NCBI GenBank assembly: GCA_947259395.1
Contig: CAMYMN010000020.1
Coordinates: forward strand, 1 to 36,609
Direction of reading: 5' to 3'
Length of the DNA stretch: 36,609 nt
Source: an uncultured Gammaproteobacteria bacterium
Lineage (GTDB): Bacteria > Pseudomonadota > Gammaproteobacteria > Arenicellales > JAANXG01
Position numbers and translations under genes: made by a program
Notes under the pieces: generated by a model
The model's input: only the letters and a program-made list of their open reading frames with translations
The model's database searches: none
Told to the model about the DNA's origin: nothing
Part shown: piece after piece, positions 4,473 to 36,609 of the stretch
How the letters are laid out: the number at the start of each line of letters is the position of its first letter
How positions within the stretch are numbered: the stretch's first letter is position 1

Positions 4473-6293
4473 ATGATAATCACGGATCCTTTTGTCTGTG
4501 AAATCTCCGACCGGTTGTGGCGCACCAAGTATCAATACAAAGACGGCGACACTGTTTACGATCAGACCATCGATGATACCTGGCGACGGGTAGCCCGGGC
4601 CGCTGCCGTCGTTGAGGAGGATTCCGATCTTTGGTCGCGGTGTTTTCATCGCATCCTAATGGACTTTCGATTCCTTCCCGGGGGGCGGATCCTCGCGGGT
4701 GCCGGCACCGGCCGCAGGGTGACTTTATTCAACTGTTTCGTGATGAACGTCATCGAAGATTCGATCGATGGAATCTTCGATGCGCTCAAGGAAGGCGCGA
4801 TTACAATGCAACAAGGCGGTGGTGTCGGCTACGATTTTTCGACACTGCGACCGGCGGGTACCTACGCGCGCACGGTGGGAAACATCGCTTCAGGACCCAT
4901 ATCTTTTATGCGGATCTGGGACAAGATGTGCGCAACCATACTGTCCACTGGTGCCCGGCGCGGTGCGATGATGGCGACTTTGCGTTGTGATCATCCCGAC
5001 ATTGAACAATTTATTGATGCGAAACAGGACAAGCACGAGCTGCGTCATTTCAATCTATCGGTGCTGGTGAGCGACGCATTCATGGAAGCAGTACAAAGCG
5101 ATCGTGAATGGTCGTTGGTGTTTCCGGCCGACAGATTGGAAGATAGCGCTGAAGGTGACGAGACCATTGACACTGTGTGGTCTGGTTCAAATGCTTCGGT
5201 TGCGTGCCGCGTGATCAAGCGTGTTCGAGCGCGCGCACTTTGGGAGCGTTTGATGCGGGCGACCTATGATTACGCGGAACCCGGGGTATTGTTTTTGGAT
5301 CGCATCAACAGCAGCAACCCATTGTGGTATCGGGAGCGAATTGCGGCCACTAACCCGTGTGGCGAGGTACCCTTACCCCCATATGGCGCGTGTAATCTGG
5401 GATCGATTAATCTGACTCGTTTTGTTTTACATGCATTTCAAAAAGACGCCTGTATAGACTGGACGGCTCTGATTGAAACCACGAAGACTGCGACACGATT
5501 CTTGGACAACGTAATCGATATATCGCGGTATCCACTGGATGCGCAGCGTGATCAAGCACTGAGAACTCGGCGGATTGGATTAGGGATCACCGGTTTGGGT
5601 AATGCCTTGGCGATGCTCGGCCTGCGCTATGATTCAGATGGCGCGCGTGAGCAGGCACAGCGATGCGTTGCCAGCATATGCCACACGGCATACCGTACGT
5701 CTATCGAATTAGCGCACGTAAAGGGAAGTTTTCCGTCGATGGATCGGGATTCCCATCTCGGTGGCGCTTTCGTTCAATCGCTGCCGGACGACATACGCGA
5801 CGGGATTGCCGACAGCGGCCTGCGCAACAGCCATTTACTCGCCATTGCTCCCACGGGATCAATAAGCTTATTGGCCAACAATATATCGAGCGGTGTTGAG
5901 CCCATTTATGATTACGCATTCACGCGCCGCATTGTGGAGCCAAATGGCGAATACTCCTTGCACCCCGTCGATGATTTTGCCTGGCGATTGTGGTGTGCGG
6001 AGCATGGAAAGTCCAAACCCGCTGCTGGCTTCGTTACCGCGCGCGAGATCAGTCCGCAAGCCCATCTACAGATGCAGGCGGTGCTACAGCCCCATGTGGA
6101 CCAAGCAATATCCAAGACGATTAATGTCAGCGAGTCGGTGGCGTTCTCGGAGTTCAAGGAACTCTATCAACACGCCTATGAATTGGGGCTGAAGGGTTGC
6201 ACCACCTACCGTCCCAATCCGGTCACCGGTGAAGTACTGTCGCTGGATGAGGACAACATCCACTGTTGCGTTATCGAGCGGGAGGGAGACTGA
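4473..6293 (+). CDS. nrdJ: Adenosylcobalamin-dependent (class II) ribonucleotide reductase
   Basis: A 606-residue single-subunit reductase that converts ribonucleotides to deoxyribonucleotides using coenzyme B12 as radical source. Visible motifs are the first active-site cysteine Cys88 in LFNCFV, the QGGGVGYDFSTLRPAG loop, the catalytic triad Asn294-x-Cys296-x-Glu298 in NPCGE, and the APTGSISLLANNISSGVEP signature. The C-terminus holds GCTTYRPN and ends with a vicinal pair Cys598-Cys599, which could be the re-reducing thiols. No small-subunit (NrdB) gene is nearby, as expected for class II. ATG 4473 is preferred over an in-frame GTG at 4464. It starts 20 bases after the stress-protein stop, so the three genes probably form one transcript. 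The enzyme works with or without oxygen, which suits changing redox habitats. Confidence 0.92.
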   Translation: MIITDPFVCEISDRLWRTKYQYKDGDTVYDQTIDDTWRRVARAAAVVEEDSDLWSRCFHRILMDFRFLPGGRILAGAGTGRRVTLFNCFVMNVIEDSIDGIFDALKEGAITMQQGGGVGYDFSTLRPAGTYARTVGNIASGPISFMRIWDKMCATILSTGARRGAMMATLRCDHPDIEQFIDAKQDKHELRHFNLSVLVSDAFMEAVQSDREWSLVFPADRLEDSAEGDETIDTVWSGSNASVACRVIKRVRARALWERLMRATYDYAEPGVLFLDRINSSNPLWYRERIAATNPCGEVPLPPYGACNLGSINLTRFVLHAFQKDACIDWTALIETTKTATRFLDNVIDISRYPLDAQRDQALRTRRIGLGITGLGNALAMLGLRYDSDGAREQAQRCVASICHTAYRTSIELAHVKGSFPSMDRDSHLGGAFVQSLPDDIRDGIADSGLRNSHLLAIAPTGSISLLANNISSGVEPIYDYAFTRRIVEPNGEYSLHPVDDFAWRLWCAEHGKSKPAAGFVTAREISPQAHLQMQAVLQPHVDQAISKTINVSESVAFSEFKELYQHAYELGLKGCTTYRPNPVTGEVLSLDEDNIHCCVIEREGD

Positions 6294-15927: not shown

Positions 15928-17682
15928 CTAGCTCAATGACATGCCTGGATTGCCTTCGATGCCCTTGACTACCGGAACGTTGGCGTTGACTTCCTTGATC
16001 ACCTTCTTGTCGCGCAGGTATTCGGCGACCACGTCCCACACCTCGGGCAGGCTGTCCGGCTGCGGATTGACGCTCGCCCAACCGGCCACCATATACGTCT
16101 TTGCAGCGTCCAATGGCTTACCGTTGAGTTCCAGATTGGACAAGCGCTGACCAATCTTCTGCGTCGGGTCAATGGTGTACTTGAGACCGCCGATGCGCAC
16201 CATGTCGCCGCCCATCTGATAGTAGGGGTCGGCGTTGAAAAGATTGTCGGCAATGTCTTCCAGGATATTCTTGATAAGCTCACCAGTCATCTCGTTTAGA
16301 GTCGACTTCGCGTAGGTGATGCCGGTTTGATCCATCAGCCGATCCATGGTGATGGTATCGCCGGGCAACAGACTGGTGCCCCAACGGAACCCTGGTGAGA
16401 ATGCGATGTCAGCGCCGCGTACGTCCATTAGTGCATCGACGATCAATTGATCAAACGTGCCGTTGAAATTACCTCGCCGGAAAAGGGTGGTTTCGGTGAC
16501 CGCCAGTTCTTCCGCCAGCTTGTCCTTGAAAGGTGCGCGCACCTTGTCGATATGCGCGGTCATTTCCTTATCGGCGGGCAGCAGATTAGCGAACACCGGC
16601 ATCATGTGGAAGCGGAAATCCTGCATCTTGCCGTTATTCACCTGCAGATCTAACACCGACAGAAACTTGGCATTGGAGCCCGAATTTATTACCAGGGTCT
16701 TGCCGCCTTTATTATTTACCAGTGTGGGTTTGGGCATGCCATCATGGGTGTGTCCGCCCAGGATCACATCGGCTCCCGTCACGCGACTCGCCATCTTGAG
16801 GTCCACGTCCATTCCATTATGGGACAGGATGACCACCAGTTGGGCGCCCTTACCGCGCACCTCGTCGACAAACTTTTGCACCTGCTCATCACGAATACCG
16901 AAACTCCAGTCTTCGACCATATAGCGTGGGTTAGCGAGTGTCGTGTACGGGAAGGCCTGCCCGATTATCGCGAGCTTGACGCCGTTGACCTCACGCATGG
17001 TGTAGGGCTTGAACACCTGGCCGCTCTCCAGGTCAAACGCAGGCTTTTCCTCGAATTGTGCGTCTTCGGTGAGCATCACATTTTGGGCAACAAATTCGAT
17101 GCTGTCCTTGAGCTGATTGTTAATGATGTCATGAACCCGGTCCATCCCATAGGTGAACTCCCAATGACCGGTCATGATGTCGACACCCAATAGTTTGCAC
17201 GCATCGATCATATCTTTGCCTTGGGTCCATAACGCCGTCGCCGATCCCTGCCACGTGTCTCCGCTGTCCAGCAACAGAGTGCGATTGGGGCGCTGGGCTC
17301 GAATCTGATCGATAAGCGTCTTCAAGTGCGCGAATCCACCGACCTTCCCATACTGGCGCGCGGCCTTTTCAAAATCCAAGTAGGTGAACGCATGTGACTC
17401 CAGGCTGCTTGGCGACACATTGAAATGCTTGAGAAACGCGTCACCCACCAGATGGGGAGGCTTGCCGGTTGCCTGTCCTACCCCGATGTTGTAGCTCGGT
17501 TCCCGGAAGTACACCGGTAAAAGCTGTGCATGACAGTCGGTAAAATGCATTAAGGTCAAATTACCGAAATCCGCTATGTCGTAGGGATTGGTTGACTTGC
17601 TCTGCGCTTGGGCGGTGAGGTCGAACCCGGCAGCCGCGGACACCGCCAAAATCTGTAAAAACTCACGACGGGTTAGACTCAT
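15928..17682 (-). CDS. soxB: Thiosulfohydrolase SoxB
   Basis: 584 residues. This periplasmic di-manganese enzyme hydrolyses the terminal sulfonate from SoxY-bound thiosulfate, releasing sulfate. A Tat signal (LTRREFLQ at residues 3-10) directs export of the folded protein. Metal-site motifs are Asp49-x-His51 (FTDCHAQ), LDSGDTWQGS, TGHWEFTYG (the SoxB form of the GNHE block), SHNG and GGHTHDG, as in the 5'-nucleotidase superfamily. Length is normal. The start has a strong GGAGGAGA ribosome binding site. It follows soxA but is cut off from it by a strong hairpin with T-run at 17744-17775, so its level is probably lower than, or independent of, soxXYZA. Confidence 0.97.
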   Translation of the reverse strand: MSLTRREFLQILAVSAAAGFDLTAQAQSKSTNPYDIADFGNLTLMHFTDCHAQLLPVYFREPSYNIGVGQATGKPPHLVGDAFLKHFNVSPSSLESHAFTYLDFEKAARQYGKVGGFAHLKTLIDQIRAQRPNRTLLLDSGDTWQGSATALWTQGKDMIDACKLLGVDIMTGHWEFTYGMDRVHDIINNQLKDSIEFVAQNVMLTEDAQFEEKPAFDLESGQVFKPYTMREVNGVKLAIIGQAFPYTTLANPRYMVEDWSFGIRDEQVQKFVDEVRGKGAQLVVILSHNGMDVDLKMASRVTGADVILGGHTHDGMPKPTLVNNKGGKTLVINSGSNAKFLSVLDLQVNNGKMQDFRFHMMPVFANLLPADKEMTAHIDKVRAPFKDKLAEELAVTETTLFRRGNFNGTFDQLIVDALMDVRGADIAFSPGFRWGTSLLPGDTITMDRLMDQTGITYAKSTLNEMTGELIKNILEDIADNLFNADPYYQMGGDMVRIGGLKYTIDPTQKIGQRLSNLELNGKPLDAAKTYMVAGWASVNPQPDSLPEVWDVVAEYLRDKKVIKEVNANVPVVKGIEGNPGMSLS

Positions 17683-17790: not shown

Positions 17791-18645
17791 TTACTGGCGC
17801 TGGCTCGGCACTTTGAGCGGCACGCCGGTATTAATGGCAGCCTCATAGAACTCCAATGCCCGGTATTGGTCGCTCTGCGGTTTGAAAGGCTTGGCCCGGA
17901 CCTGCTTGTTGCAACCGCCGTAGCGGCGATGCACGGTTCCCCAGGGTTTGCCCTTGAGCGCCCACTTTGTACGATACACCGGAAAACCCGTGGTATGTCC
18001 AAGGCCGGCGCTCAGCACGTCACCGCGTAACTTATTACCCGCGCTGTGCACGTGACAGTTGGCGCAAGAGAAATTCAACTGACCGCGTTTGGTCCAGTAA
18101 AATTTTTTGCCCGCTTCATAGGCCGCCACCGCGCCGGGGCTGTCGATGTCGACATTCCACGGCTGACCGTTGTATTGCTCTCGGAACGCGGCAATCAGCA
18201 TCGCCATCTTGCCATGTTTGAGGTTCTTGATCGGTTCTTCCCCATTCTTCTTCAGGCAATCATTGAGGTCCAACTCGATGGTCCGAATCTCCTTGGTCTT
18301 ATCGTTGTAATAGGGATATTTCGTCGCCGGCCGATCGAAACAACTAGCCAGGGTCTTGCCGCTTTTCATCGGCTTTTGCCACAACGCGCGGGCCTTATCC
18401 ATATCCGTGTCATACGGTGGAAACTCCATGAGCAGTTCCCAGTTTGCACGCCGCTCCGCGTATTGCGGTAAGGCGTTGACGCCGTCGCTGTAATCAGAAA
18501 GGCTCACGGTTGGAAAACGCTTCTTGAAGTAGGCTTGGTACTCTGCAATTTCTTTTTTCACTTTGGGGTTCTGAGCCGCCCACACCATAGCTGAGGAACC
18601 GCACAGCAAGGCCAGTGCAGAGAGCATTAAAACAGTTTTTCGCAT
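17791..18645 (-). CDS. soxA: Sulfur oxidation c-type cytochrome SoxA
   Basis: 284 residues. With SoxX it forms the periplasmic SoxAX cytochrome, which oxidatively couples thiosulfate to the SoxY cysteine. Residues 1-23 are a Sec signal peptide. A single haem site C194-A-N-C197-H198 is present. The N-terminal haem position of dihaem SoxA is replaced by Cys102 and Cys130, which probably form the disulfide found in monohaem SoxA. Cys245 (YGGCNK) is the expected persulfide-modified haem ligand. The start at 18645 has a very strong GGGAGGAGA; an in-frame ATG at 18696 would put extra residues before the signal. Confidence 0.95.
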   Translation of the reverse strand: MRKTVLMLSALALLCGSSAMVWAAQNPKVKKEIAEYQAYFKKRFPTVSLSDYSDGVNALPQYAERRANWELLMEFPPYDTDMDKARALWQKPMKSGKTLASCFDRPATKYPYYNDKTKEIRTIELDLNDCLKKNGEEPIKNLKHGKMAMLIAAFREQYNGQPWNVDIDSPGAVAAYEAGKKFYWTKRGQLNFSCANCHVHSAGNKLRGDVLSAGLGHTTGFPVYRTKWALKGKPWGTVHRRYGGCNKQVRAKPFKPQSDQYRALEFYEAAINTGVPLKVPSQRQ

Positions 18646-18701
18646 TACATCTCCTCCCGTGTTGACGCCGGTCCACGATGACCGGCATTCAGACAAGTGG
18701 G

Positions 18702-32783: not shown

Positions 32784-32813
32784 AAAAAAACCGGCGCAGG
32801 CGCCGGCTTTTTT
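32784..32813 (-). terminator. Intrinsic terminator after the four-gene Cas6-like/DsrC-like unit
   Basis: CCGGCG-CAGG-CGCCGG with seven A before it and six T after (32807-32813 region), 24 bases past the stop of the 71-residue protein. The six-pair GC stem is strong and symmetrical, so it should also stop transcription coming from the other direction. Confidence 0.8.
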
Positions 32814-32836
32814 AATTCATGGATTTGCGTAATCCG

Positions 32837-33052
32837 TTAGCGGCTGGATCCTTTTTCCTCATGAGCGAGATCCACCACCCGGGACGACATTTCCCCGTAC
32901 TTCTCTTTGTATTGAAAAAGGGGATGCCCTTCTTTCCCCGCCCAATACTCCTCGGGCTTGACGCCGTTTTGCTGTTCAAATTCAATAAACTTTTTCTGCA
33001 TCTCGAGCATCTGCTCGATCAGTTTGCGTTTCTCGGTAGCTGCATCGCTCAT
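32837..33052 (-). CDS. Small coiled helical protein, last gene of the unit
   Basis: 71 residues from the ATG at 33052, with GAGGG about ten bases upstream. The N-terminal part (AATEKRKLIEQMLEMQKKF, then IEFEQQNG) is a likely amphipathic or coiled helix; the second half reads GVKPEEYWAGKEGHPLFQYKEKY and ends KGSSR. There is no cysteine. No named family is recognised. It lies 107 bases after the DsrC-like gene and just before the terminator. A longer frame up to 33127 adds residues without support. Confidence 0.7.
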   Translation of the reverse strand: MSDAATEKRKLIEQMLEMQKKFIEFEQQNGVKPEEYWAGKEGHPLFQYKEKYGEMSSRVVDLAHEEKGSSR

Positions 33053-33159
33053 CTTAAAACCCTCAACGTCCAATACGTGATCTGAGAACAGACTAACACA
33101 GGCAAAAGACAAATCGGCATACGCCATAATGGATAGTCTAGTTCGCGCAGACGTTTGAA

Positions 33160-33498
33160 TTAATATCCACCTTTGCGGCGCGACTCCGGAAGGCCGGCGA
33201 TCTTGCCGCCTTGCTTGCTGGGCATCTGTGGAAATAGATCATACATTTCCTTGCTGCTGAGTTTTTTACTCCACAGTTTACCCACTGCTTTTAAAATCGT
33301 GCGTTCGTTGGGCTGATTTCCACCCTGGTTGTAATACTCGTCCCGTAGATAGTTGATAATATCCCAGTGTTGATCCGTAAGTTCGATCCCCTCCAGTGTC
33401 GCAATATGGCGAGCGAGATCTTCGCTCCAATCTTCCGCATTGACGAGATGACCGTTGTCGGTGGTCTCTATTGTTTTACCTTGGAACTCTAAGGCCAT
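33160..33498 (-). CDS. Cysteine-less DsrC/TusE-family protein (RspA-like)
   Basis: 112 residues with the DsrC fold: IELTDQHWDIINYLRDEYY, NQPNERTILKAVGKLW, and a C-terminal arm QGGKIAGLPESRRKGGY. In DsrC the arm reads KQGC..GLP..GC with two redox cysteines that form a trisulfide; in TusE one remains. Here the first is Gly98 and the last is replaced by Gly111, and the whole protein contains no cysteine. It cannot carry sulfur. Proteins of this kind have been grouped as RspA and are thought to be regulatory, since DsrC itself has a helix-turn-helix-like core. GGAG lies seven bases before the ATG. It follows the Cas6-like gene by 45 bases. Confidence 0.9.
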   Translation of the reverse strand: MALEFQGKTIETTDNGHLVNAEDWSEDLARHIATLEGIELTDQHWDIINYLRDEYYNQGGNQPNERTILKAVGKLWSKKLSSKEMYDLFPQMPSKQGGKIAGLPESRRKGGY

Positions 33499-33543
33499 GG
33501 TTGGTCTCCTTCACTTCTGAGGTGTTCACATGCTTTTGCTACT

Positions 33544-34233
33544 TTATTCATCATCGTCGGTGGTCACCGGCTTGATTCCCTTGTGGGGAATGAACAGCCC
33601 GCAGCCAATCTTACGGCCGGATCCAAGACCGCGCTGCTGCAATGACACGGATTCCTCGGGTTCCAGTTCCGCCAGCATCAGGCTGCGAACCAAGATGCGC
33701 TGCTCAGGAAATTCGAACGCCGATTGCCGGCCGCATAGCAACTTACGCACCTTGATTTCCATCCCCTGCAACTGCGCGACACAATGCTCTACGAATTCCG
33801 GCTCACTTTGCTCCGCCTCGACGATGACATGGCGGGAAAAAAGCGTCGTATGTGCGCTCAATGTCCTGGCGGTCGCGTCACCCACTATCATCTCGTATCC
33901 GCCGACGTCGAGATGACGACCGGTGAGGGCGCGGGCATCATCAAGGCGCGCCTTGGGCAGCCGCAACCGTAATCGGGTACGCCGTGACACCTGCAACAGC
34001 TCGCGCGCGGAATCGTCGGGCCGGTACCAGCCATTACCCGATTCGGCGACATGGATCAGATGGATCCCGGCATCGGGTTCGGAATCCAACCATGGCAGCA
34101 CGTCCGTGATGGCGCGCGACAACGCATAGGCATGATCGACCGGCAGACAGCGCGCCTGCATCCGGAACGCGAGATCCTGGATGTCGTCGGGAACGACGAA
34201 TTTCTCGGTGGCGGATTTTTCTTGCCAATACAT
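33544..34233 (-). CDS. Orphan Cas6/Cmx6-like RAMP protein
   Basis: 229 residues resembling the Cas6/Cmx6 family of the MYXAN type. Near the N-terminus is LPVDHAYALSRAITDVLPWL (about 30-49), followed by AGIHLIHV, a TRLRLRLPKARL strand and LTGRHLDVGGYEM. The C-terminal glycine-rich loop RGLGSGRKIGCGLFIP (201-216) is the RAMP hallmark. Cas6 enzymes cut CRISPR transcripts; catalytic histidine candidates are His34, His58 and His61, but I cannot assign one. No CRISPR repeats or other cas genes are in the window. It sits 3 bases after the helical protein gene (TAA-TCG-ATG) and before a DsrC-like gene, so a non-immune RNA-binding role is inferred. Confidence 0.8.
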   Translation of the reverse strand: MYWQEKSATEKFVVPDDIQDLAFRMQARCLPVDHAYALSRAITDVLPWLDSEPDAGIHLIHVAESGNGWYRPDDSARELLQVSRRTRLRLRLPKARLDDARALTGRHLDVGGYEMIVGDATARTLSAHTTLFSRHVIVEAEQSEPEFVEHCVAQLQGMEIKVRKLLCGRQSAFEFPEQRILVRSLMLAELEPEESVSLQQRGLGSGRKIGCGLFIPHKGIKPVTTDDDE

Positions 34234-34236
34234 CGA

Positions 34237-34923
34237 TTAATTAATCGGCAGCGTTGCCTGGATGTGGTCGCGATCGAACCACCACTCGTCCTGCACCATC
34301 ACATCGATGACGTTGCGCAGCCGGACCAGGAATTTGGCGGGATCGGTGAGTTCCAGCCGTTCCATCCAGCGGTCGAATTCATCCTGACTCGTTATATTGG
34401 CGTGACGGCGCGCGACGCTGCCCAGCAACTGCATGGCAAAGAAATGCAAGTCACTATATTGCTTTTCCTCGGCGCGAAGATCCACCACGTAGACTGCGGT
34501 GGCTGCGGCCACCGCCGCGCCGTCTGCGTCATCCGGTGTTTCATCCACGATGTGTTGCAACATGGCAACGGTCAATTCCGGATCCACCGGACCCTGACCC
34601 AGTGCGCTGAGTGAACCTTGTTGATCGGCGCGGAATAACACATCGCAGGCCTCTACCGCCTTTTCCCACAGCTGGGCGTCGATATAAACATCAATCGTCG
34701 GCCGGGCGGTAGCCCATGCCTCGTCGCCTTTATCCAGCGCGATCAACAGTGCAGCCCTTTCCTTTTCCAGGTCGGCGCGGTGCATCGGGTTGCCTACACT
34801 GTCTAGCTCCTGCAGCCGCTCTTGCAACGCGTGTAATCGCGACTCGATGGCAGCGGTAGATGCAGCCGCCTCGTCGCCGCTCTCGGCGCCGAGGTCAAAC
34901 TGATTCATATTCACGTATTTCAT
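34237..34923 (-). CDS. Helical, TPR-like protein, first gene of the unit
   Basis: 228 residues, acidic and nearly all helical. Residues about 22-60 (AIESRLHALQERLQELDSVG, then HRADLEKERAALLIAL) look like coiled coil; the next part (DKGDEAWATARPTIDVYIDA, then QLWEKAVEACDVLF) resembles TPR-type helix pairs. The C-terminal part contains FFAMQLLGSVARRHANIT and VQDEWWFDRDHIQ. No named family is certain. ATG alternatives are 34923 and 34908. It ends three bases before the Cas6-like start, which shows they are co-translated and probably interact. Confidence 0.75.
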   Translation of the reverse strand: MKYVNMNQFDLGAESGDEAAASTAAIESRLHALQERLQELDSVGNPMHRADLEKERAALLIALDKGDEAWATARPTIDVYIDAQLWEKAVEACDVLFRADQQGSLSALGQGPVDPELTVAMLQHIVDETPDDADGAAVAAATAVYVVDLRAEEKQYSDLHFFAMQLLGSVARRHANITSQDEFDRWMERLELTDPAKFLVRLRNVIDVMVQDEWWFDRDHIQATLPIN

Positions 34924-35132: not shown

Positions 35133-35330
35133 CTATTGTTCATCCAGGGCAGCGGTGAATGCCGCTTCCAGGCGGTCTTCCCAATTCTCCGGTGTGTCCT
35201 TAAACGGCGGTTTGATATCCATGCGGAAAAATCGTTCGCCGTTTTGCGCGCCGCCCCTGACCAGCACAATCAACTCTTCAAACGAGTCGATATCCTGGTT
35301 TTGCAGCAGAATTTCACTCAGCCAGAGCAT
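35133..35330 (-). CDS. Small protein overlapping the TauD-type gene
   Basis: 65 residues from the ATG at 35330, which lies 17 bases inside the oxygenase gene in another frame. The sequence is MLWLSEILLQNQDIDSFEEL, then IVLVRGGAQNGERFFRMDIKP and a helical WEDRLEAAFTAALDEQ end. It has no cysteine or membrane segment. Overlap of starts and stops suggests translational coupling with the oxygenase. A longer frame up to 35453 is merely the shadow of the oxygenase end. Function unknown. Confidence 0.65.
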   Translation of the reverse strand: MLWLSEILLQNQDIDSFEELIVLVRGGAQNGERFFRMDIKPPFKDTPENWEDRLEAAFTAALDEQ

Positions 35331-36267
35331 GATCGGTTTCGCGCAAAAAACGATTCGTGTCTGTATCCTTGATTCGGTCATAGTAGCGGGCGCGATACAA
35401 CAATCGTCCATCACCCGCATCGTTGGAAAACGCAGACCGGTTATGCAGGACATTGTTGCACACCAGGCCTTGCCCAGGTTGTAAGCGGTGTCGGATTACA
35501 TATGGGGTCTGATGCGACAAGATCTCAACTAGACAACGCAACGCGTTCCGGGTGGCGGGATCATTGCGCCACTGAATCGACCGGGTGCGTGCGGTATAGC
35601 GCATGTGTAGCGCACCGGTGGCCTGTTCTACGGAGAATACCGGCCCGCTTTGGGCTCTGCGGATTGCCGTATCGCGGAGATTGGCGGGAATAGTCATCGC
35701 CTCGGGGTGCATGAGCGCGCGGATGTATTCGGGATTCTCGTCGCGTAGCAGGATGTACGCCAATTCCGGGTCTAGGAGTTGGTTGACACCCCCCTTTGAC
35801 GCATTGCGAATGCAGTGCAGGACAAAGGCGCGTATCCGCTGATCGGGGGGGTTGTAGTAGCCATCGGTATGCCAGTTCAGGGTGCGGTCGGTGTAGGGGA
35901 TGTAACCGGCGTGAATGCCACCGGCTCGCACCTCCAAGGAGCTAACGCTGTCGTTGTCCGCGCACAGGTTGTCATCCAAGTGGGTCAATCCGAGTTGGTC
36001 ACCAAGCCGGCGCACGGCAGGTTTATCCATGGGTACGGCGCACTGATAGATCACGAGGTTCGCGCTGCGGCACCGGCGCAGCAACGCGTCGCGCTCGGCA
36101 CCGGTCAACGTGTTCGGATCGCTGATCTTGACAATCAGGTCCTGCGCGCGGCGCGGTTGACGGGCGAGTTTCTTACTGCGCCACGCGGCATAGGCGTCGG
36201 TGTCACTGAGGGCGAAGGGGTCTCCCGACGCAGGGCGGGAACCGGAGCGAGTCGATGTCAGAGTCAT
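35314..36267 (-). CDS. TauD/TfdA-family dioxygenase
   Basis: 317 residues from the ATG at 36267 (an in-frame ATG at 36330 adds 21 residues). Fe(II) ligands are His133-x-Asp135 in LNWHTDGYYNP and His275 in NNVLHNRSAF; the 2-oxoglutarate-binding arginine is in RLLYRARYYDR. The family includes taurine and sulfonate dioxygenases that release sulfite, and enzymes for trimethyllysine, gamma-butyrobetaine and other substrates; HTDGYYNP resembles the latter broader group more than strict TauD. The substrate cannot be told. It is the third 2-oxoglutarate oxygenase in the window. Confidence 0.88.
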   Translation of the reverse strand: MTLTSTRSGSRPASGDPFALSDTDAYAAWRSKKLARQPRRAQDLIVKISDPNTLTGAERDALLRRCRSANLVIYQCAVPMDKPAVRRLGDQLGLTHLDDNLCADNDSVSSLEVRAGGIHAGYIPYTDRTLNWHTDGYYNPPDQRIRAFVLHCIRNASKGGVNQLLDPELAYILLRDENPEYIRALMHPEAMTIPANLRDTAIRRAQSGPVFSVEQATGALHMRYTARTRSIQWRNDPATRNALRCLVEILSHQTPYVIRHRLQPGQGLVCNNVLHNRSAFSNDAGDGRLLYRARYYDRIKDTDTNRFLRETDHALAE

Positions 36268-36609
36268 GCGCGTAATCGAACCGTATTCGGGAAAAGCAAG
36301 TTTCACACACAATGCAATAGGTTTGTTCACACCACTGTCGAAGGCCGCGGATTGTAATGAAGCTGTCTGCGGCCGTTAACCCGGTAAACGGGGTAGAGTG
36401 CTGCCCGCCCCGGTTGAACACCGGTAACCCGATTCAGGACCGCTTCACCGGGGCACATCGGTACACAATGTCTTTGTTTTCAGGGGTTTCAAGCGGTCCA
36501 CTATCCTTCATGCGGAGTATGCGGTAACGCGCCGGAAATGCGCCTATCTCTTAAGAGATACCGGGTAGTTGCGATTTCCTCCCATCAGGAGGGTGCGTCC
36601 ACCGGGAGA
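36268..36609. other. Right-edge region without an assignable gene
   Basis: About 340 bases. It contains a perfect 16-base palindrome TATCTCTTAAGAGATA (36545-36560) and a small CCTCC-CATCA-GGAGG hairpin just after it. A plus-strand frame from ATG 36538 is open to the edge (24 codons) and a minus-strand frame enters from the edge and stops at the palindrome after 21 codons. Either could be a gene end, but neither is long enough to judge. Confidence 0.4.

Follow-up and report, generated by a model that had tools for sequence, protein, structure and literature searches.

The stretch of DNA analysed here, termed the window, is a 36,609-nucleotide sequence from an uncultured gammaproteobacterium (assembly GCA_947259395.1, contig CAMYMN010000020.1). 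Towards its end, on the minus strand, a gene at 33544-34233 encodes a Cas6-like protein, and beside it lies a gene for RspA, a cysteine-less paralogue of the sulfur relay protein DsrC. By profile and predicted fold the window protein is a genuine Cas6; its gene is not a CRISPR gene, and the link of the Cas6-like gene to the dsr genes of sulfur oxidation is firm. The reading put forward, for which the chances are judged to be roughly even, is that a Cas6 was exapted once and became an RNA-binding or RNA-processing accessory of reverse Dsr sulfur oxidation. This reading is built on the Cas6 identity, the predicted fold, a separate clade and a retained histidine and glycine loop, together with co-occurrence with dsrA, the conserved divergent layout and, in many loci, RspA alongside. 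The family and these kept residues suggest that RNA is handled in the Dsr system.

The Cas6-like protein matches PF09559 with an E-value of 9e-62 (208.9 bits against a cut-off of 26.7) and the NCBIfam model TIGR02807 with 120.5 bits (cut-off 98.85). PADLOC also calls the product of 33544-34233 Cas6. The predicted structure is a Cas6/RAMP fold with two ferredoxin-like domains, in keeping with the RAMP assignment of the initial annotation, and the glycine-rich loop described there is present as G202-x-G204...G210-C-G212. A histidine, H34, lies at the start of helix 1. In Cas6 proteins the histidine and the glycine loop serve RNA cleavage and binding. H34 is kept in 99% of 88 dsr-linked proteins and in all seven labelled I-MYXAN proteins, and its position suggests that it is catalytic. 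The dsr-linked proteins also carry residues that are absent from the CRISPR Cas6 proteins compared: R85, E144, G168 and K218 in all of them, and NGWxRP and K164 in the main group.

The distribution of the gene was followed in two draws, of 274 genomes from the class and 398 from the phylum, with the window genome common to both. PF09559 was found in 91 of the class genomes and dsrA (TIGR02064) in 94, the latter count comprising 87 matches over the cut-off and seven sub-cut-off fragments, with weaker matches to other reductases left out. Both genes occur in 87 genomes, the Cas6-like gene only in four, dsrA only in seven and neither in 176. Thus, the Cas6-like gene is present in 87/94 genomes with dsrA versus 4/180 of the others (p 1.9e-57, computed as if the genomes were unrelated). 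This bears out, for dsrA, the correlation with sox, dsr or sHdr genes that had been suggested as a check. In the phylum draw, PF09559 was found in five genomes and dsrA over the cut-off in 52; the five dsrA genomes that belong to the class are exactly those with PF09559, and no PF09559 match was obtained in the 47 out-of-class dsrA genomes. On the strength of the two draws, the Cas6-like gene is confined in these samples to dsr-bearing members of the class, and its apparent frequency depends on the draw, being 91/274 in the class and 5/398 in the phylum. Most of 80 named relatives are labelled gammaproteobacteria or a group within them, and one (L138) is labelled an archaeon.

The exceptions within the class are compatible with assembly gaps, which falls short of proof. 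In the four Cas6-like genomes without dsrA (G067, G093, G127 and G186), the contig ends 751-2234 bp upstream, before the expected dsrA. Among the genomes with dsrA only, dsrA lies at most 660 bp from the contig end on the side of the unit in G070, G110 and G207, a contig end truncates the unit in G123, and the dsrA genes of G079 and G238 are fragments. In G211 the flank is present and the unit is absent.

The arrangement of the genes was examined in 90 class loci, made up of the flanks of 89 of the 91 carriers and the window. Where 4.5 kb or more of upstream sequence is available (73 loci), 59 have a divergent dsrA within 6 kb; in the other 14 the Cas6-like gene is away from dsrA (some of their dsr loci are L226-L234). 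The next gene downstream on the same strand is of the RspA type in 62 of the 84 loci with at least 1.5 kb on that side. Conservation of gene order, which had been proposed as a check, was therefore found. Upstream on the same strand, where at least 3 kb is available, a small protein termed F35 occurs in 62/75 loci and a TauD-like dioxygenase in 54/75. A TPR-like protein is encoded in 35/90 loci and the 71-amino acid protein H71 in 45/90, both together in two. A second set, which overlaps the first, consists of 80 named loci among the matches listed (at least 568 relatives); here dsrA is divergent in 47/55, the RspA-type gene is next in 53/69, and the TPR-like protein and H71 each occur in 37/80, with both in six. 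The spacer between the unit and the divergent dsrA has a median of 481 bp (123 loci). Four divergent in-class sequences, for which "beta-like" is a working label and a guess, show the Cas6-like gene followed by rspA, directly divergent from dsrA. The locus of G259, cut by a contig end, holds the Cas6-like gene, F35, TauD, dsrA and dsrB. RspA may remain near dsr where the Cas6-like gene is elsewhere (L229, L234). The assignment of dsrA is backed by TIGR02064; the other dsr genes were named from their sequences and are presumed to be what these names state, with dsrB, dsrE, dsrC and dsrK tracked by profiles built from those sequences.

In the window itself, the initial annotation had described four closely spaced minus-strand genes closed by a terminator, and their order, spacing and coordinates are confirmed. 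The unit exceeds these four genes, with the TauD-like gene and F35 forming its upstream part:

36331..36609, no strand assigned: start of the divergent promoter region, with the contig end before dsrA (alignment to L121).
35314..36330, minus strand: TauD/TfdA-family dioxygenase, first gene of the unit (PF02668, 2e-22; likely start near 36267).
35133..35330, minus strand: F35, a 65-amino acid protein overlapping the TauD end (conserved family 35).
34237-34923, minus strand: TPR-like all-helical protein (from sequence).
33544-34233, minus strand: Cas6-like (RAMP) protein, 229 amino acids (Pfam, NCBIfam, PADLOC, predicted fold).
33160-33498, minus strand: RspA-type DsrC paralogue with zero cysteines and a KGGY C-terminus (PF04358, E 4.8e-33).
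32837-33052, minus strand: H71, 71 amino acids (homologue at the same place in 45/90 class loci).
About 32784-32815, minus strand: GC-rich inverted repeat with a T-run, a likely terminator, symmetric and so usable from both strands.

The Cas6-like gene starts three bases past the TPR-like gene. After H71, where a terminator had been annotated, the inverted repeat and T-run are in place; a terminator pattern scan called the repeat on the plus strand only, and its yield for the region was five terminator-like sites, with 4.0 expected. The nearest relative of the window locus is L121 (90% identity). Between the two, dN/dS is lowest for rspA (0.07), followed by the Cas6-like gene (0.14), the TPR-like gene (0.15) and H71 (0.17), values which indicate that purifying selection acts on all four genes. 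In the TPR-like protein of the window, about nine residues after LGQG (consensus IWLxVTFPI) that are present in most relatives are missing.

The contig ends at 36609, 279 bases past the TauD frame. Positions 35133-36609 align with 7265-5736 of L121 (82% identity over the last piece), and the dsrA of L121, which is split in two frames, starts near 5595, about 140 bases past the aligned end of the window. Because the contig stops before dsrA, the linkage in the window's own genome is deduced from relatives. This genome has a single dsrA over the cut-off, on another contig and with a score (477.6 bits) below most; the unit is not adjacent to it. Sox-type genes are also present in the window: a SoxA/TsdA cytochrome domain is encoded at 17791-18696, and a protein with a 5'-nucleotidase C-terminal domain, which we take to be SoxB, at 15928-17682.

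The proposal that the unit does not function in immunity is supported. As controls, eight Cas6 genes labelled type I-MYXAN were used, all from cyanobacterial plasmids; seven of them lie beside cas genes. The 19 Cas1, Cas2, Cas3, Cas5, Cas7 and Cas8 proteins of these seven loci recovered all seven controls when used as queries and gave no relatives (E 1e-3) in 175 dsr-linked loci, other cas families not being sought. The array script found no CRISPR-like array in the window, in agreement with the initial annotation; across 170 loci this crude script reported repeats in three (L087, L119 and L140), which were not looked into. No Cas1 was found in the window's genome, which is 86.6% complete. Among 80 tested carriers, Cas1 is present in 37 and was not found in 43, and in G239 it shares a contig with the Cas6-like gene, at a distance of about 22 kb. 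In a tree of 42 sequences (30 of the 88 dsr-linked, four beta-like and the eight controls), the dsr-linked and control proteins are split on one branch with a support of 100/99. The control without cas neighbours is L211, on plasmid pGMOR1 of Gloeobacter morelensis. Its I-MYXAN-labelled Cas6 lies near an annotated phosphoadenosine phosphosulfate reductase family gene with no annotated cas neighbours, and no relative of the control cas genes was detected there.

The frequent downstream neighbour is RspA, a name which we take to be that used for the cysteine-less DsrC homologues of sulfur oxidisers in the DsrC literature. Residues about 3-105 of the window protein match the DsrC/TusE family (PF04358, TIGR03342; DsrC structure 1yx3), named TusE in NCBIfam, and the absence of cysteines noted initially is correct. 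The C-terminus is KGGY in 67 of 68 aligned rows, the exception (L032) being a 34-residue fragment. A cysteine near the C-terminus was seen in at least four relatives (L037, L040, L042 and L082; last 30 residues inspected). RspA-level matches, defined as those reaching the last residue with more than 140 bits (a threshold set at a gap in the scores) and including a match in G110 truncated at the end of its contig, occur in 84/274 class genomes; 80 of these carry the Cas6-like gene and the other four have dsrA. RspA-type proteins ending in KGGY were also noted in IMG/VR contigs classed as viral (L259 3971-4312, L260 4001-4336 and L261 4001-4339), the gene before it in the 219,676-base contig L261 being presumably TusA-like. 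A separate scan gave no Cas6-like relative in viral contigs. Another contig of the window genome (C17; L206 4928-7860) carries dsrA and dsrB as a divergent pair, closely preceded on the same strand by a DsrC-like gene that does not end in the usual cysteine; lone dsrAB pairs also occur at L220-L223 and L225.

As regards the origin of the unit, TauD and F35 are divergent from dsrA in four of five full dsr operons outside the class, none of them with PF09559. Since these operons have the pair, TauD-F35 was probably associated with dsrA first, and the Cas6-like gene and RspA are likely additions in this class. In these out-of-class loci (L255-L258), a long frame follows next on the strand in L256, L257 and L258 and is presumably a siroheme synthase-like gene. 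Mirror distance correlations, a crude measure taken over 70 of the 80 loci after removal of identical dsrA, were highest for Cas6-TauD (0.77); the other pairs gave 0.16-0.57, with 0.40 for Cas6-dsrA.

In the mechanism proposed, a single exaptation would have taken place in an ancestor of dsr-bearing class members, with a relative of the type I-B/I-MYXAN Cas6 proteins as its source, and the gene would now be a regular accessory of the reverse Dsr sulfur-oxidation cluster. The Cas6-like protein would still bind, and probably cleave, a specific RNA from the sulfur-oxidation genes, with the dsr transcript, its own leader or a small RNA as candidates. This step would set the amounts of the Dsr proteins post-transcriptionally. 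RspA, presumably unable to carry sulfur on its arm, may dock to DsrAB or DsrEFH through the KGGY arm and thereby link the sulfur-relay state to the RNA step, and the TPR-like or H71 proteins may be interchangeable adaptors. The fuller statement, in which a domesticated Cas6 ribonuclease lineage and a non-sulfur-carrying DsrC paralogue as sulfur-state reader would form a system dedicated to controlling lithotrophic sulfur oxidation at the level of RNA across dsr-bearing gammaproteobacteria, is offered tentatively, as a possibility of somewhat less than even standing.

The search for an RNA target was centred on the dsr spacers. The mean folding z was -2.3 both for the dsrA-dsrB spacers (98 distinct) and for the 150 bases after dsrC (93). 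Stems of at least 10 pairs occur in 47% of 97 dsrA-dsrB spacers and 45% of 92 post-dsrC regions versus 3-4% of shuffles, and in 50% of 18 dsrB-dsrE spacers of at least 40 bases versus 5.6% when shuffled. In about half of the operons, long GC-rich hairpins, mostly without a T-run, are thus seen at dsrA-dsrB and after dsrC. Among stems of at least eight pairs, 4/71 (dsrA-dsrB) and 16/89 (post-dsrC) are terminator-like, the loci not being deduplicated. Elsewhere the mean z was -0.4 for cas6-rspA, -1.0 for rspA-h71, -0.4 before dsrA, -0.3 before the unit and -0.7 before dsrC; the 150 bases after rspA gave -1.7 and are perhaps terminators. An Rfam scan of six sources returned one tRNA only. In Allochromatium vinosum, the dsr genes form one transcript whose change differs greatly from gene to gene (dsrA -4.7, dsrC -1.2 log2), according to the available part of PMC11267869, which leaves room for an RNA step.

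Several results weigh against the exaptation of Cas6 as an RNA-handling accessory. The dsr spacer hairpins were rejected as the target, as the dsrA-dsrB stems are also present in three of five full out-of-class dsr operons without the Cas6-like gene (L235-L239). Where dsrAB stands without any further operon gene found in the stretch, such stems occur in 1/15 pairs (the comparison covers 20 of the 47 out-of-class dsrA genomes). Given these operons, the hairpins go with the full operon and not with the Cas6-like gene. Unlike the usual Cas6 substrates, the inspected hairpins have no common sequence, and spacer folding, stems and Rfam together disclosed no RNA partner. The dsrC of A. vinosum has its own promoter (PMC11267869 and PMC3368242, both as available in part), and therefore its unequal expression needs no nuclease. 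In the closest solved relative, the Cas6 of a CRISPR-associated transposon (CAST; 8fcj), an asparagine aligns to H34, and one of four distant dsr-linked proteins has a tyrosine at this position. Moreover, dsr operons without the gene exist outside the class, 11 of the 91 Cas6-like carriers are without an RspA-level match, and the Cas6-RspA distance correlation is weak (0.29), so that a special co-evolution of the two is unsupported.

The failure of the target searches fits an explanation in which the Cas6-like protein has lost its RNA work and serves DsrAB or DsrEFH as a protein-protein scaffold or maturation factor, by way of its ferredoxin-like fold and a new conserved surface. The residues specific to the subfamily and the DsrC paralogue often found alongside point the same way; set against this, almost all of the proteins retain H34 and the glycine loop, and the explanation is regarded as unlikely, at about one chance in four. 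The divergent layout, with its shared spacer, suits instead regulation by sulfur state, in which RspA would bind DNA at the dsrA promoter shared by the two sides and the Cas6-like protein would assist in controlling transcription. DsrC is indeed described as binding DNA upstream of the A. vinosum dsr cluster (PMC5944118, available in part). This account leaves a Cas6 fold with its kept H34 unexplained. No unusual structure is seen in the 150 bases before dsrA or before the unit, a result with no bearing on DNA binding. The account is considered improbable.

Two further explanations carry still less weight. DsrC and TusE are homologous, as are DsrEFH and TusBCD. Together with the NCBIfam name of the matched family, this would suit a diversion of sulfur from the Dsr relay by the Cas6-like and RspA/TusE-like proteins to the thiolation of tRNA or other RNA. 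The window RspA has no cysteine to hold the sulfur and its family ends in KGGY, and the presence of the genes tracks dsrA, whereas tRNA thiolation is general; such a diversion is very unlikely. That the protein is a CRISPR Cas6 serving arrays elsewhere in trans, near dsr by chance, finds some backing in the TIGR02807 CRISPR equivalog cut-off being passed and in the Cas1 genes of 37/80 carriers, including the one about 22 kb away in G239. This is largely refuted, and has hardly any probability left, given the 43/80 carriers and the window genome in which no Cas1 was found, the dsr co-occurrence, the separate clade, the 0/175 loci with I-MYXAN cas relatives and the adjacency to cas genes in 7/8 control loci.

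If the exapted Cas6 does handle RNA, a layer of control in sulfur oxidation has gone unrecognised and Cas6 lives outside immunity. If true, the proposal would also give a first test of the purpose of the cysteine-less DsrC homologues in sulfur oxidisers. Since the unit is compact and its proteins are small, the question is open to direct test. Databases label the gene CRISPR, and annotations that treat it as a defence gene would have to be revised. A Cas6-like gene tied to dsr is not described in the literature searched, a scope that leaves outside most subscription papers and all preprints, and the available parts of PMC10952691, PMC5944118, PMC6397845, PMC7540712, PMC5728499, PMC10504309, PMC7787665, PMC4287430, PMC6452270, PMC11267869 and PMC3368242 contain no such tie.

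Among known systems, the divergent neighbour of the unit is the reverse Dsr cluster dsrABEFHCMKLJOPNRS, and the genes of the unit are absent from the named dsr genes in the portions of the literature available. DsrC of the sulfur relay carries redox cysteines on its C-terminal arm, whereas in the RspA family these are replaced and the protein ends in KGGY. DsrC homologues without the two C-terminal cysteines have been reported in the Solemya velum symbiont, with no Cas6-like link mentioned in the available part of that source (PMC4287430). The closest known systems for the Cas6-like protein are the Cas6/Cmx6 of type I-MYXAN (I-B-like) CRISPR-Cas and the Cas6 of the type I-B CAST (PDB 8fcj). 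In contrast to both, the dsr-linked family has dsr genes as its regular neighbours, forms its own clade and conserves other residues.
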